A DNA stretch of 64,000 nucleotides from Wenzhouxiangella sp. 15190 (GTDB taxonomy: Bacteria; Pseudomonadota; Gammaproteobacteria; Xanthomonadales; Wenzhouxiangellaceae), in assembly GCF_003417465.1 (NCBI RefSeq), contig NZ_QVMV01000032.1, forward strand, positions 1 to 64,000, written 5' to 3'. The position numbers and the translations under genes were made by a program. Shown here piece after piece: positions 11,174 to 16,315 of this stretch. The notes beneath the pieces are model-generated. The model saw nothing but the letters and a program-made list of their open reading frames with translations, made no database searches and had not been told where the DNA came from. How positions within the stretch are numbered: the stretch's first letter is position 1; each line of letters begins with the position of its first letter.

Positions 11174-12685
11174 ATGCCCGAAACTACCCCTCACCCGCTG
11201 TCCACGCGCCTGCGGCGCATCAGGCGGCGATTTGGCCGCCGCTTGGGCACACGCTCGGTGCTCACGCTACAGTTGGCCGGCTTCGCGCTGGTTGCACTGC
11301 CACTGCTGATCGCACTGATTATCGCCGGCGGGCAGATCGACCGCGTCACGCGCGAGGGCGAACAGTTGCTCGACCGCAGCCTGTCGGTTACGCGCTCGGC
11401 GCGACAGATCGGTGAGCGGGTACTTGCCTTCGAGCGCGCCGCGCGCCAGTACGGCGTGCTGCGCGACCGCGAGGCGCGCGGTAGTCTGCTGGAGCGCCAT
11501 CGCACCCTGCTCCAGGGGCTTGAAGACTTCATGATCCTCACGGCCACGGAACCCCTCATTCACCATGCCGATGCAATCCGGGAGCAAAGCCGAGCGCTGT
11601 TCGACCGGACCCTGGACATACAAACCGACGAAGACTGGCCGCAGCACCTGGCCGACGAGTTCGGGCGCCTCAATGAGCGCGCCAACACCCTTCTTCTCGA
11701 CAGCGAAGCGGCCGCCGGCGAGGGTCTCGAAAGACTCGAGCGAATGGGTGAATCAGCTCGCAACTTCTCTTTCCTGAGTCTCGGCCTGACCGTTCCGCTG
11801 GCCATAGCCCTGGCGTTGTTGATGGCCGGCTTTCTGAATCGGCGTGTACGCCGACTCGACCGTGGCATGCGGGCCCTGGCACGGCCGGAGCAGGCGCGCA
11901 TTGAGCAAATCGCCAGCCCGCGCGACTTGCGCGCGCTGTCGATCCGCATGGAGTGGGTGCGCCGTCGCCTGACGCGCACTGAACGCGACCGGCGCCGTCT
12001 GGTCGGTCAGGTTTCGCACGAACTCAAAACGCCATTGAGCGCCATCCGCGAAGGCACCAGCCTGCTCTCCGACCAGAGCTTCGGCGCGCTTGGCCGCCAA
12101 CAGCACGAGGTCATCGGCATCATCCAGTCCAACATCGAGCGGCTGCAGGAACAGATCGAGAACCTGCTGCGCTTCAATCGCTTGCAAAGCGGGACGCAGC
12201 CACGCCTCCACCGGATAGTGCGGCTCGATGAACTGGCCGGTCGCGTGCTCGCCAATCACCGGCTCACCGTGGAGGCGCGCAACATGCAAGTCGAACTCGA
12301 TGCACCCGCGCCGGTGACAGTCGAGGGCGACCCCGACATGCTTGCCACGGCGCTCGACAACCTCGTATCCAACGCCCTGAAGTTCTCGCAGGAAGGTGGC
12401 ACAATCGGTATCGATATCCGGCACGTTGACGACCATGCCATCGTCCGGGTCGCCGACAGCGGCCCCGGAATCCAGGCTCGCGACCACGATCAGCTTTTCG
12501 AGCCCTTCTACCGGGGCGACAGCAGTCACACGCGCACTCGCCCCGGCAGTGGGCTGGGCCTGGCGATCTGCCGGGACCTGGTGCGTGCCCACCGCGGCGA
12601 CGTCGATCTGGTCGATCAGGCCGGCTGGTCGACCGTCTTCCAGATCCGTATTCCATTGCAGCAACTACGAGAGTCGAACCCATGA
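11174..12685 (+). CDS. glrK: Membrane sensor histidine kinase, GlrK/QseE type
   Basis: From ATG 11174 the product is about 503 residues: a short cytoplasmic N-tail, TM1 (LQLAGFALVALPLLIALI), a periplasmic helical sensor, TM2 near residue 205, a HAMP-like linker, the dimerisation helix with phosphoacceptor His282 in QVSHELKTPLSAI, and an ATPase domain with NLVSNALKFS, DSGPGI and GSGLGLAIC. It should phosphorylate the sigma-54 activator encoded two genes downstream. Gene order kinase/small secreted protein/activator is that of enterobacterial glrK-qseG-glrR (qseEGF), which is the main reason for the name. The stop overlaps the next start (ATGA). The longer frame from 11069 runs into pyrC and is unlikely. 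Confidence 0.88.
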   Translation: MPETTPHPLSTRLRRIRRRFGRRLGTRSVLTLQLAGFALVALPLLIALIIAGGQIDRVTREGEQLLDRSLSVTRSARQIGERVLAFERAARQYGVLRDREARGSLLERHRTLLQGLEDFMILTATEPLIHHADAIREQSRALFDRTLDIQTDEDWPQHLADEFGRLNERANTLLLDSEAAAGEGLERLERMGESARNFSFLSLGLTVPLAIALALLMAGFLNRRVRRLDRGMRALARPEQARIEQIASPRDLRALSIRMEWVRRRLTRTERDRRRLVGQVSHELKTPLSAIREGTSLLSDQSFGALGRQQHEVIGIIQSNIERLQEQIENLLRFNRLQSGTQPRLHRIVRLDELAGRVLANHRLTVEARNMQVELDAPAPVTVEGDPDMLATALDNLVSNALKFSQEGGTIGIDIRHVDDHAIVRVADSGPGIQARDHDQLFEPFYRGDSSHTRTRPGSGLGLAICRDLVRAHRGDVDLVDQAGWSTVFQIRIPLQQLRESNP

Positions 12686-13209
12686 GCGTTACCGTTCCGC
12701 GCCTTGTCACCGTATTGATCCTTGCCGGTGTCGCGCTTTCCGCCGGAGCCCGATCGGGCGGGGAGAGAAATGACGACGCGATCACCCCCACCGATATCGT
12801 CGTACGCGTAGACCGGGCGCTGCGTGTGGATGACAGCAATGCGCATACCTGGTATGCCGGCCTGACCCATGCCGAAGACTGGACCGCCCGACTCGAACGC
12901 TCGCTGCTGGAGATACTCGGGCCGGCCGAAATCCGCAACGCCAACCGCGCCCTGGAGCGCCTCGAGCAGCTGGCGCGGGACATGCCGACCGACCGCCGCC
13001 TTGAGCAAGGGACCAGCACCACCCTCAAAGTCATCACCGAGCTGCTGGCCCGGCAGATCAACAGTAATCGCGACCGGCAAAAGCTGTCACGCGCGCTGGA
13101 TACCGAACGCGAAGCGCACCTGCGCACGCTCGAGAAATTGGCCGCACTGCGCGAGATCGACGAAGAGCTGGATGGGCGCGACCGGGAGTCGGAAAGTGAG
13201 GGCCGCTAG
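12682..13209 (+). CDS. QseG-like secreted helical accessory protein
   Basis: The 175-residue product has a hydrophobic signal segment (VTVLILAGVALSAGA) followed by a mostly helical, charged body with a probable coiled coil near residues 90-165 (ERLEQLARDMPTDRRLEQ and REAHLRTLEKLAALREIDEE). It sits exactly where qseG (yfhG) lies in the GlrK/GlrR operon, overlapping the kinase stop by 4 bases and ending 2 bases before the response regulator. Enterobacterial QseG is an outer-membrane lipoprotein; here there is no cysteine lipobox, so it is probably soluble in the periplasm or membrane-anchored by its N-terminus. Homology is inferred mostly from position and architecture. Confidence 0.6.
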   Translation: MSVTVPRLVTVLILAGVALSAGARSGGERNDDAITPTDIVVRVDRALRVDDSNAHTWYAGLTHAEDWTARLERSLLEILGPAEIRNANRALERLEQLARDMPTDRRLEQGTSTTLKVITELLARQINSNRDRQKLSRALDTEREAHLRTLEKLAALREIDEELDGRDRESESEGR

Positions 13210-13211
13210 CC

Positions 13212-14588
13212 ATGGCTGAAGACGCCCCGATCGGCAAAAACTCGAGCGACAATGCCCCGCGCGTTCTGCTGGTCGACGACGACCCAGGATTGCTACGGCT
13301 GATCTCCCTGCGCTTGAGCTCGAGCGGCTACCGCGTTGATACGGCTGCCAGCGGCGAAGACGCGCTCGGCCGGGCGGCAAGCCACACGCCCGACGTAGTC
13401 GTCACCGACCTGCGAATGGAGGGCATGGACGGTATGGCGCTGTTTCGCCAGATACGCGAGAGCGATCCCACCCTTCCCGTGATCATCCTGACCGCCCACG
13501 GCACCATCCCCGATGCCGTCGCGGCCACGCGCGAGGGCGCGTTCGGCTTTCTGACCAAGCCCTTCGACAGCCAGGAACTGCTCGAGACCATCGCCGAGGC
13601 CATCTACACCCGCTCCGGCCAGCCGCGAGTATCGGGCAGGCAGCATAACGGCATCGTCACCCGCAGCCAGGCCATGGAACGGCTGCTGTCGGAAATCGAA
13701 CTGGTCGCCGAAAGCGACGCCAGTGTCCTCATCCAGGGCGAAAGCGGCTCGGGCAAGGAGATCATCGCGCGCGCCATTCACGACGCCGGGCCGCGCCGTG
13801 ACGGCCCATTCGTGGCCATCAACTGTGCCGCCGTCCCGGCGGATCTGCTCGAATCGGAGCTGTTCGGTTACCGCAAGGGTGCGTTCACCGGAGCCGACCG
13901 CGATCACGACGGGCTATTCGTCCAGGCGGCCGGCGGAACGGTGCTGCTCGACGAGATCGGCGACATGCCCCCGGCTTTCCAGGCCAAGCTGCTGCGCGCC
14001 CTGCAGGACGAACGTGTCCGCCCCGTTGGCGCAACCGAGGAAATCGAGACCGACGTCCACGTCATATCCGCCACCCACCGGAACCTGGAGCAGGCCATCC
14101 GCGACGAGCGGTTTCGCGAGGACCTCTACTACCGCCTGAATGTCGTCCAGCTCGACATTCCACCGCTGCGCGAGCGCCCCGAGGACATCGTGCCCCTGGC
14201 CGAGCACTTCCTCGCCCAGGTCCAGGCAGACAAGCCGGAAGGCGAGCAAATCGGTGGTTTCTCGCGCGAAGCCCTACGCGTCCTGCTCGACCACGAATGG
14301 CCAGGCAACGTGCGCCAACTGCGCAACGTCGTCGAGCAGGCCTGCATACTGTCGCGCCGCGGGCCCATTCCCGCTGATCTCGTACGACGCGCGCTGCGCC
14401 GGGAGACCGGCGGGGTCAAACCACTGGCCGAGGCTCGCGAGAGCTTCGAGCGCGACTATCTCGCGCGCATCATGCGTATGAGCCAGGGCAATGTCAGCGA
14501 AGCTGCACGCCTGGCCGGTCGTAACCGCACGGAGTTCTATCGTCTGCTCAAGCGACACCGGCTCGACCCTTCCGACTTCAAGCCCTGA
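13212..14588 (+). CDS. glrR: Sigma-54-dependent response regulator, GlrR/QseF type
   Basis: This 458-residue activator has the three expected parts. A receiver domain carries phosphoacceptor Asp66 (VVVTDLRMEGMDG) and the FLTKPF lysine. An AAA+ domain has Walker A GESGSGKE, the sigma-54-contacting GAFTGAD loop and the R-finger region DLYYRLNVVQLDIPPLRER. A Fis-type HTH lies at the C-terminus (NVSEAARLAGRNRTEFYRLL). Phosphorylated by GlrK, it should open sigma-54 promoters. A near-consensus sigma-54 promoter with a GlrR-like half-dyad lies just downstream, before the EF-hand gene. It is the last gene of the three-gene operon. Confidence 0.93.
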   Translation: MAEDAPIGKNSSDNAPRVLLVDDDPGLLRLISLRLSSSGYRVDTAASGEDALGRAASHTPDVVVTDLRMEGMDGMALFRQIRESDPTLPVIILTAHGTIPDAVAATREGAFGFLTKPFDSQELLETIAEAIYTRSGQPRVSGRQHNGIVTRSQAMERLLSEIELVAESDASVLIQGESGSGKEIIARAIHDAGPRRDGPFVAINCAAVPADLLESELFGYRKGAFTGADRDHDGLFVQAAGGTVLLDEIGDMPPAFQAKLLRALQDERVRPVGATEEIETDVHVISATHRNLEQAIRDERFREDLYYRLNVVQLDIPPLRERPEDIVPLAEHFLAQVQADKPEGEQIGGFSREALRVLLDHEWPGNVRQLRNVVEQACILSRRGPIPADLVRRALRRETGGVKPLAEARESFERDYLARIMRMSQGNVSEAARLAGRNRTEFYRLLKRHRLDPSDFKP

Positions 14589-14663
14589 AACCGCCTGTCG
14601 CCAATCGACGACACTCGATACCGGCGGTCGATCGGGGCCTGTGGCGCGATGACTCTTTTCACC

Positions 14664-14681
14664 TGTCGCTTGCAGGCAACA
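14664..14681 (+). promoter_or_regulatory. Candidate GlrR upstream activating site
   Basis: TGTC at 14664-14667, ten bases, then AACA at 14678-14681 differs at one position from the TGTC-N10-GACA motif described for enterobacterial GlrR. It lies about 80 bases upstream of the -24 element of the sigma-54 promoter, a normal distance for an enhancer site. The element is short, so chance occurrence is a real possibility. Confidence 0.35.
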
Positions 14682-14743
14682 ACTTGGGCTGTCGACTGTC
14701 CCGCCCGAAATCATACATCATTGATTTGACAGTTTTTTTCTAA

Positions 14744-14760
14744 TTGGCACGGTATCTGCT
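14744..14760 (+). promoter_or_regulatory. Sigma-54 (-24/-12) promoter of the EF-hand gene
   Basis: TTGGCACGGTATCTGCT matches the consensus TTGGCACG-N4-TTGCT at all positions but one. The invariant GG (14746-14747) and GC (14758-14759) are separated by exactly 10 bases. The start of transcription should be near 14770, about 50 bases before the ATG, and the leader contains a 6-bp hairpin with a TCAA loop (14771-14786). The neighbouring upstream gene encodes a sigma-54 activator. Confidence 0.75.
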
Positions 14761-14821
14761 GGAGAGTGACCGAGCCTCAAGGCTCGTTGTTTCAAGCTAA
14801 TGCGAGTAAAAGGAGTTGCTC

Positions 14822-15103
14822 ATGATGAAACTCAGAATGCTTTCCCTCATGTCATTCATCGCTGCCCTGGCCATGGCTGCATCGGTCGCCGTGGCCCAGA
14901 ATCCCAGCTTCGAGGAAATGGACCGTAACGACGATGGACTGATCAGCGGCAGCGAGGCCATGGCTCTGCCCTGTCTCGCGCAGGTCTACAACCGAATCGA
15001 AAAAGAGGACGACGCGGGGCTCAATCGCAGCGAATACAACGCCGCGACCCAGAAGCACTGTCAAAGTTCACAGTCTCAGGAAGACGACTGGCCCGAGTCG
15101 TAA
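14822..15103 (+). CDS. Small secreted EF-hand protein
   Basis: The 93-residue product has a signal peptide (cleavage after AVAQ) and one canonical EF-hand loop at residues 34-45 (DRNDDGLISGSE: ligands D34, N36, D38, E45 with G39). A second, degenerate loop (EKEDDAGLNRSEY) lacks the standard spacing. Two cysteines flank the second half. It probably binds Ca2+ in the periplasm or outside the cell; partner unknown. AAGGAG lies six bases before ATG 14822, so the in-frame TTG at 14816 is rejected. The sigma-54 promoter upstream and a strong terminator downstream make it a single-gene unit, likely controlled by GlrK/GlrR. Confidence 0.8.
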   Translation: MMKLRMLSLMSFIAALAMAASVAVAQNPSFEEMDRNDDGLISGSEAMALPCLAQVYNRIEKEDDAGLNRSEYNAATQKHCQSSQSQEDDWPES

Positions 15104-15164
15104 GCCCAACACCGGCGTCATGTCCGGGCCGGCATGACGCCCGTTCCACTCCCCAACCGGATTA

Positions 15165-15197
15165 CCCGTCGGCGCCACGGTGTCGACGGGCTTTTTT
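15165..15197 (+). terminator. Rho-independent terminator after the EF-hand gene
   Basis: CCCGTCG (15165-15171) pairs with CGACGGG (15184-15190), followed by C and six T residues. A second, T-less hairpin GGCGTCATG/CATGACGCC lies just before it (15114-15141). Confidence 0.85.
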
Positions 15198-15358
15198 GTG
15201 TCGGTCGCCCGCCACCTCGGGGCATAATACCGGTTGGTCTGTCAGTCATCACCAACAGGCATGAGAGCCATCGCTCCAGTAATTTTCACCGGGCCAATCG
15301 TCAGACTGCCGCGGCCGTCGTTGGCTTTCCGAATGCCGTGCGCCGGGACTCTTCGTCC

Positions 15359-16315
15359 ATGATCCGTCTGGGCACCAGCGACAAGGATCTGAAGCGGGCC
15401 GCCGAATTGCTTGCGCATGGTGAACTCGTCGCCCTGCCCACCGAAACCGTCTACGGCCTGGCGGCCGATGCTGGCAATGCCGAAGCCGTTGGCCGGATTT
15501 TCTCCGCCAAGGGCCGACCGGCCGATCACCCGCTGATCGTGCACCTGCCCGATATCGATACGCTGGAAGTCTGGGCGACCGACGTTCCGGATACGGCGCG
15601 CCGGCTGGGCCGCGCATTCTGGCCGGGACCGCTGACACTGATTCTTCGAAAAGCCGACGACGTACCGGATGTCGTCACCGGCGGCCAGGACACCGTCGGG
15701 CTGCGAGTACCCGGCCATCCGGTGGCGCTGAAACTGCTCAAGACATTCGGCCGGGCGCTTGCCGCGCCTTCTGCCAACCGCTTCGGCCGCATCAGCCCGA
15801 CCACGGCCGACCACGTCATCAGCGAATTCGAAGGCAGCGAAATGGTTGCCGCCGTGATCGACGGCGGCCCCTGCGAGGTGGGCCTGGAATCGACCATCGT
15901 CGACTGCAGCGGCAGACATCCAAGCATCCTGCGACCGGGCATGATCAGCCTCGAGCAACTCAGCGAGGCACTCGGCGAAGTGCCGGCACTGGCCGGGGAA
16001 CTGGAGGGTCCGCGCGCCTCCGGTCGCCTGCCTTCCCACTATGCCCCGGAGACGAAAGTCGAGTTGGTCGAGGCGGACACGCTGCTGCGGCCCGATGCGC
16101 AAGCGGCCGTGCTGGCGCTGGCCGACATGCCCAATCCGGGCGGCTTCAAGGGCTGGCAGGCTTTGCCCAAAGATCCCGCCGCTTATGCCCGGAGTCTCTA
16201 CGCCGCACTCCGCGAACTCGACACGCTCGGCGCCGAACGCATCCTTGTCCAGCGTCCGCCCGAAAACCCGGCCTGGGCGGCCATCCTCGACCGGCTCGAG
16301 CGCGCGACGGCCTGA
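15359..16315 (+). CDS. sua5: L-threonylcarbamoyladenylate synthase, Sua5/YrdC/YwlC type
   Basis: The enzyme makes threonylcarbamoyl-AMP from threonine, bicarbonate and ATP, the first step of the universal t6A37 tRNA modification. The 318-residue product has the YrdC fold at residues 1-200 (LPTETVYGLAADA, IFSAKGRPADHPLIVHL, FWPGPLTLIL, GLRVPGHP, APSANRFGRISPT, GLESTIVD, ILRPGMI) and a C-terminal Sua5 domain (to 318), so it is the long Sua5 form, not the short TsaC of E. coli. The start ATG 15359 is chosen because the family begins just before this point; upstream in-frame sequence is unconserved. Confidence 0.92.
   Translation: MIRLGTSDKDLKRAAELLAHGELVALPTETVYGLAADAGNAEAVGRIFSAKGRPADHPLIVHLPDIDTLEVWATDVPDTARRLGRAFWPGPLTLILRKADDVPDVVTGGQDTVGLRVPGHPVALKLLKTFGRALAAPSANRFGRISPTTADHVISEFEGSEMVAAVIDGGPCEVGLESTIVDCSGRHPSILRPGMISLEQLSEALGEVPALAGELEGPRASGRLPSHYAPETKVELVEADTLLRPDAQAAVLALADMPNPGGFKGWQALPKDPAAYARSLYAALRELDTLGAERILVQRPPENPAWAAILDRLERATA

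Follow-up and report, generated by a model that had tools for sequence, protein, structure and literature searches.

A GlrR-type sigma-54 promoter next to glrR and its probable target, a secreted EF-hand gene, in Wenzhouxiangella

Genes and sites at the glrR locus

The window (the whole 64,000-nucleotide stretch of DNA that was analysed) comes from a 3.13 Mb Wenzhouxiangella genome, in which an rpoN gene was also found. Three genes in the order kinase, QseG, regulator, as in GlrK/QseE, YfhG/QseG and GlrR/QseF, are followed in the same orientation by two dyad sites, a promoter and a short open reading frame (ORF):

11174–12685, + strand: GlrK/QseE-like sensor histidine kinase gene, with HisKA and HATPase_c (Pfam); heads the three-gene order
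12682–13209, + strand: QseG-like small exported protein gene, assigned from its position and its overlap with the kinase stop
13212–14588, + strand: glrR-like sigma-54 activator gene, with receiver, AAA+ (carrying GAFTGA) and Fis-type HTH domains (Pfam)
14596–14613, + strand: upstream activating site 1, perfect TGTC-N10-GACA, TGTCGCCAATCGACGACA; in the same place in three relatives
14664–14681, + strand: upstream activating site 2, TGTC-N10-AACA, TGTCGCTTGCAGGCAACA; 80 bases above the -24/-12 element
14714–14726, + strand: IHF-like site TACATCATTGATT, one departure from YAANNNNTTGATW
14744–14760, + strand: -24/-12 sigma-54 promoter TTGGCACGGTATCTGCT, one departure (C for T) from the consensus YTGGCACGNNNNTTGCW
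14771–14786, + strand: hairpin at the predicted transcript 5' end (predicted start ~14770); in all four glrR-bearing Wenzhouxiangella genomes
14810–14815, + strand: Shine-Dalgarno AAGGAG, from the sequence
14822–15103, + strand: gene for a 93-aa exported EF-hand protein, whose canonical loop is DRNDDGLISGSE; G003 and G021 have orthologues
15165–15197, + strand: intrinsic terminator, an 11-pair stem (15165–15190) followed by T6

The top NCBIfam model for the activator is GlrR PRK15115 (E 3.6e-170), and because the score of 566 bits lies under the curated equivalog cut-off of 763, we refer to the protein as GlrR-like; the same model gives 579 for a Thiobacillus-type orthologue and 923 for that of Pantoea. 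The GAFTGA motif sits within RKGAFTGAD, and the recognition helix, RNRTEFYRLL, differs from the RNRTEFYKLL of Pantoea and Erwinia GlrR by a single K to R change. The ORF at 12682–13209 matched no Pfam family above cut-off and no NCBIfam family, and a search of its N-terminal/signal region for the lipobox cysteine of the QseG lipoprotein found none there.

A preliminary description of this DNA had proposed a -24/-12 element matching at all but one position with GG-N10-GC spacing, an adjoining upstream activator gene of GlrR type, a near-match to the GlrR site 80 bases above the -24 box, and a small secreted calcium-binding-type gene with its own terminator. Each of these was borne out: GG-N10-GC lies in TGGCAC and TTGCW surroundings with the one departure, site 2 is present, the activator is GlrR-like with an enterobacterial recognition helix, and the signal peptide, EF-hand loop and terminator of the target gene are all real. 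That description had overlooked site 1, which is spaced 68 bases from site 2 (64–68 in the relatives), and the IHF-like site, whose offset of ~30 bp above the -24 box is the same in most homologous promoters.

The EF-hand loop of the 93-residue protein spans residues 34–45 and fits the canonical 12-residue DxDxDGxIxxxE, with D34, D38, G39, I41 and E45, together with two cysteines, invariant across three species. One canonical and one degenerate loop form the EF-hand pair, and the Pfam EF-hand score is 15.5 bits against a gathering threshold of 25.9; the orthologue in G003 (W. sediminis XDB06) reaches 26.4 against 25 with EF-hand_6. Modelling with AlphaFold from three sequences gave low overall confidence (mean pLDDT 65.7) but two helix-loop-helix units within residues 30–80. 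Nei-Gojobori dN/dS values for the EF-hand ORFs of the window genome, G003 and G021 are ~0.24 and ~0.16, which are rough because synonymous distances are near saturation. By this measure, the ORF is coding and under purifying selection.

The promoter and its downstream genes across genomes

The -24/-12 motif by itself proves nothing, because TGGCAYRNNNNYTGCW has 10 occurrences in the 3.13 Mb genome and its reversed control 9. Of 13 sigma-54-like sites inspected, one of which precedes a gene with a PspA-looking product, only the window promoter has a GlrR-type site upstream. The genome contains 46 perfect TGTC-N10-GACA sites, and no promoter of equal score lies within 350 bp of any of the remaining ones; a relaxed genome search for site plus promoter recovered the window promoter and otherwise only weak or coding matches. 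The four-part layout, unlike the -24/-12 motif alone, is beyond chance. A separate -24/-12 site, at G000:C26:165305-165320 (L005), precedes a small exported protein gene, and another sigma-54 activator gene (C26:162397-163764) lies ~1.5 kb from it, perhaps forming a second activator-neighbour pair.

Of 37 family members sampled, only 4 have a GlrR orthologue at 70–80% identity. In all four Wenzhouxiangella genomes with glrR, two GlrR-type sites 66–68 bp apart and the -24/-12 box stand in the same order, and the 5' hairpin is present too, with two of its stem pairs altered on both sides in G021; the IHF-like site stands at its usual offset in three of the four. The EF-hand ORF also follows the promoter in three (the window genome, G003 and G021), with ~50% protein identity, and strong matches to the protein among relatives were confined to glrR-bearing genomes. 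The promoter-gene pair, whose persistence in relatives had been named as a check on the preliminary description, is therefore kept in these three, while the fourth genome keeps the promoter and sites. Among 398 genomes of the order, three more carry a GlrR orthologue at 55–56% identity, and no such promoter was seen 3' of glrR in these three, one of which offers just 143 bases there. Elsewhere in the order, L013 and L017, for which no close GlrR orthologue was found, have small exported EF-hand genes after -24/-12-like sites (GTGGCACGCACGTTGCG and TTGGCACGCCTCGTGCG), with a perfect IHF-like site also present at the L017 gene. GlrR-type sites were not found upstream of either gene, so similar genes there may answer to a different activator.

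In the GlrR tree, the fourth genome, G024, is placed with G003 (support 96/92); it retains the sites, promoter, 5' hairpin and terminator, with no ORF 3' of the promoter. The remnant from the start region to the terminator is ~134 nt long and has no ATG start; its predicted fold of –65.1 kcal/mol compares with –49.1 for shuffled sequence (z –4.4; middle part alone z –4.1). The 3' half of this remnant shares 82% identity with the 3' untranslated region that follows the EF-hand ORF in G003, indicating that the ORF was lost and the ends were kept. An unlinked gene, G024:C19:102347-102658, encodes an exported protein with two EF-hands, and upstream of it lie perfect GlrR sites TGTCGCAGCCAGGCGACA and TGTCGCTCACAGACGACA and then a -24/-12 promoter TTGGCATGCACTTTGCT, so that G024 seems to retain the EF-hand output of GlrR in trans. 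A further match, on the + strand at G024:C19:102891, was discarded because it falls toward the 3' end of a gene that runs the other way.

We also surveyed 80 relatives of GlrR from sequenced genomes, only one of them from within the genus and 76 with enough downstream sequence, for a GlrR-type site together with a strong -24/-12 box no more than 800 bp below glrR. This combination was present at 45 of the 76 loci, mostly in Betaproteobacteria, a figure that is not the number of independent events because many loci are from close relatives (Variovorax, Polaromonas). Shuffled sequences, preserving base composition only, gave 0 of 1520, and the opposite-strand background was 6 matches in 588 kb. 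At the other 31 loci, which include most gammaproteobacteria, the scan found no such promoter after glrR; the Pantoea glmY promoter, upstream of the kinase gene, was among those that the scan recovered. Of 55 promoters, 43 (2.6 expected) carry an IHF-like site that departs from the consensus at no more than one position, mostly 29–31 bp upstream of the -24 box.

Different genes lie behind the promoter in different lineages: opgG/mdoG in relatives of Polaromonas, Hydrogenophaga and Acidovorax and opgH/mdoH in Variovorax; Thiobacillus relatives have DUF1328, beyond which another promoter of this kind precedes an EF-hand gene (in part EF-hand plus BON), L084 has EF-hand plus BON, and a Kangiellaceae genome has an EF-hand protein. 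EF-hand proteins thus recur behind a GlrR-type promoter in several lineages, although their mutual similarity across lineages is no more than EF-hands generally share, which is compatible with both descent and repeated recruitment.

Several other arrangements came to light in this survey. In thirteen Burkholderiales loci (L077, L079, L080, L082, L087, L089, L092, L100, L102, L104, L107, L123 and L126), the first ATG of opgG, just 3' of glrR, lies 11–12 nt past the end of the -12 motif, so that a sigma-54 transcript would be nearly leaderless. Two Rhodocyclaceae-type loci (L066 and L085) have a conserved hairpin of ~90 nt (z –3.4 and –2.5), with a T run at its end, that lies 3' of the GlrR-type promoter and ahead of the following gene and to which Rfam gave no match; L072 has a similar stretch further downstream. 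Two Rhodocyclaceae/Thauera MAGs (L121 ~1248, L122 ~1163, minus strand) have strong sites of GlrR type and a consensus sigma-54 promoter at the other end of the operon, upstream on the side of the kinase. In a Colwellia MAG (L063 ~1004, minus strand), GlrR-type sites and a sigma-54-like promoter point off the operon, a possible counterpart of the glmY position.

Proposed control of the EF-hand gene and alternative explanations

Taken together, these comparisons favour a GlrR/sigma-54 promoter of conserved plan and exchangeable cargo, which here would drive an exported EF-hand protein; we put the probability of this reading at about 0.88. Within it, there is good support for a secreted EF-hand gene as the target of the promoter, and the promoter plan is probably old and common to other GlrR lineages, the driven gene having been exchanged. 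The three-gene set of kinase, QseG-like protein and GlrR-like regulator would control the gene directly 3' of it. Specifically, phosphorylated GlrR would bind the sites at 14596 and 14664, IHF would bend the DNA at ~14720, and GlrR would then contact and open sigma-54 RNA polymerase at 14744–14760. The transcript, predicted to begin near 14770 and to end at 15190–15197, would carry a protective hairpin at its 5' end. Its product would be a small Sec-exported protein that most likely works as a calcium-dependent envelope factor, either periplasmic or extracellular. We infer an envelope-stress output of the promoter from what GlrR is known to regulate and from the genes found as cargo elsewhere (opgG, opgH, BON, DUF1328).

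Could the same sites have another meaning? Were the -24/-12 match and the dyads products of chance or decay, with the gene expressed from a sigma-70 promoter, the motif counts would look as they do, at no more than the reversed control; but a scan of 14500–15400 found no sigma-70-like site, and the layout is kept both in other orders and in four genomes whose GlrR proteins share 70–80% identity and whose EF-hand proteins, where present, share ~50%. We regard this explanation as highly improbable. It is slightly easier to imagine a genuine sigma-54 promoter that answers to a different activator, the GlrR sites serving something else, for example autoregulation. The genome does encode other activators, 42–44% identical to GlrR, and the EF-hand genes of L013 and L017 have -24/-12-like sites without either GlrR-type sites or a close GlrR orthologue. 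However, no other gene separates glrR from the sites, the promoter is directed away from it, the distance from site to -24 box is fixed across genera, and the sites are absent at the other sigma-54-like sites of the genome, all of which makes this arrangement improbable as well.

A somewhat stronger, though still unlikely, proposal is that the output lies at the RNA level, with a transcript that is partly a regulatory RNA like enterobacterial GlmY and an EF-hand ORF that is a dispensable passenger. The ORF-less G024 locus, its stable 134-nt fold, its resemblance to the G003 3' untranslated region and the paired changes in the 5' hairpin are all in keeping with such a role. Against it, purifying selection acts on the ORF in the remaining three genomes, the tree places the ORF loss in one lineage so that a remnant is equally likely, and there is no Rfam match; hairpins, moreover, also serve transcript stability and termination. 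The reading with an exported EF-hand protein as the output is preferred here. We tentatively extend it, with considerable doubt, to a broader scheme: the promoter beside glrR may be an output slot that has been conserved while lineages exchange the cargo placed there (genes for glucan synthesis, DUF1328 or EF-hand/BON; in enterobacteria, an sRNA encoded at the opposite end of the operon), and loss of the ORF in one Wenzhouxiangella species may have turned the mRNA into a structured ~134-nt noncoding RNA under GlrR control.

GlrR has been studied mainly in enterobacteria, and the comparison offers likely direct targets in Betaproteobacteria and Wenzhouxiangella, most of them envelope-linked. 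Since the recognition helix is as in enterobacterial GlrR, the prediction could be tested directly with reporters in E. coli. The locus is also an opportunity to study how genes are exchanged behind a promoter that stays fixed, and perhaps how an mRNA becomes a noncoding RNA.

Comparison with known GlrR systems

In E. coli, QseF/GlrR works with IHF at TGTN12ACA sites, and the known enterobacterial targets are glmY and rpoE (PMC6075780). The preliminary description had expected a target outside this regulon, and the EF-hand gene, being neither glmY nor rpoE, agrees with that expectation. The window shares with the glmY/QseE-QseG-QseF (GlrK/YfhG/GlrR) system of Enterobacteriaceae the single operon, TGTN12ACA sites, IHF (predicted here from an IHF-like site), a -24/-12 promoter and the recognition helix. 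It differs in that its promoter lies 3' of glrR, whereas that of glmY is upstream of glrK; in having two sites rather than the three at glmY; in a product that is a secreted EF-hand protein instead of an sRNA; and in a QseG-like protein that lacks the lipobox cysteine of QseG. The Rfam GlmY model (RF00128) had no match in the window stretch or the Wenzhouxiangella loci and was found in the Pantoea and Erwinia controls, and Rfam over the window region gave a single, sub-threshold match. In the open-access literature, we found no report of GlrR or QseF regulation of EF-hand, opgG or DUF1328 genes.

The protein has the signal peptide and EF-hand pair common to small exported bacterial EF-hand proteins. 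Its nearest named NCBIfam model is lanmodulin (E 0.0012; 18.9 bits against a cut-off of 135), an identity that we rejected in view of its single canonical loop, degenerate second loop and two conserved cysteines. Close parallels to the promoter are those adjacent to GlrR in Burkholderiales and Thiobacillus, which resemble it in their place 3' of glrR, site spacing, IHF-like site and -24/-12 box. They differ from it in the site-to-promoter distance (~94 there, 63 in the window) and in their cargo, which there comprises opgG, opgH, DUF1328, EF-hand plus BON, BON or other genes.
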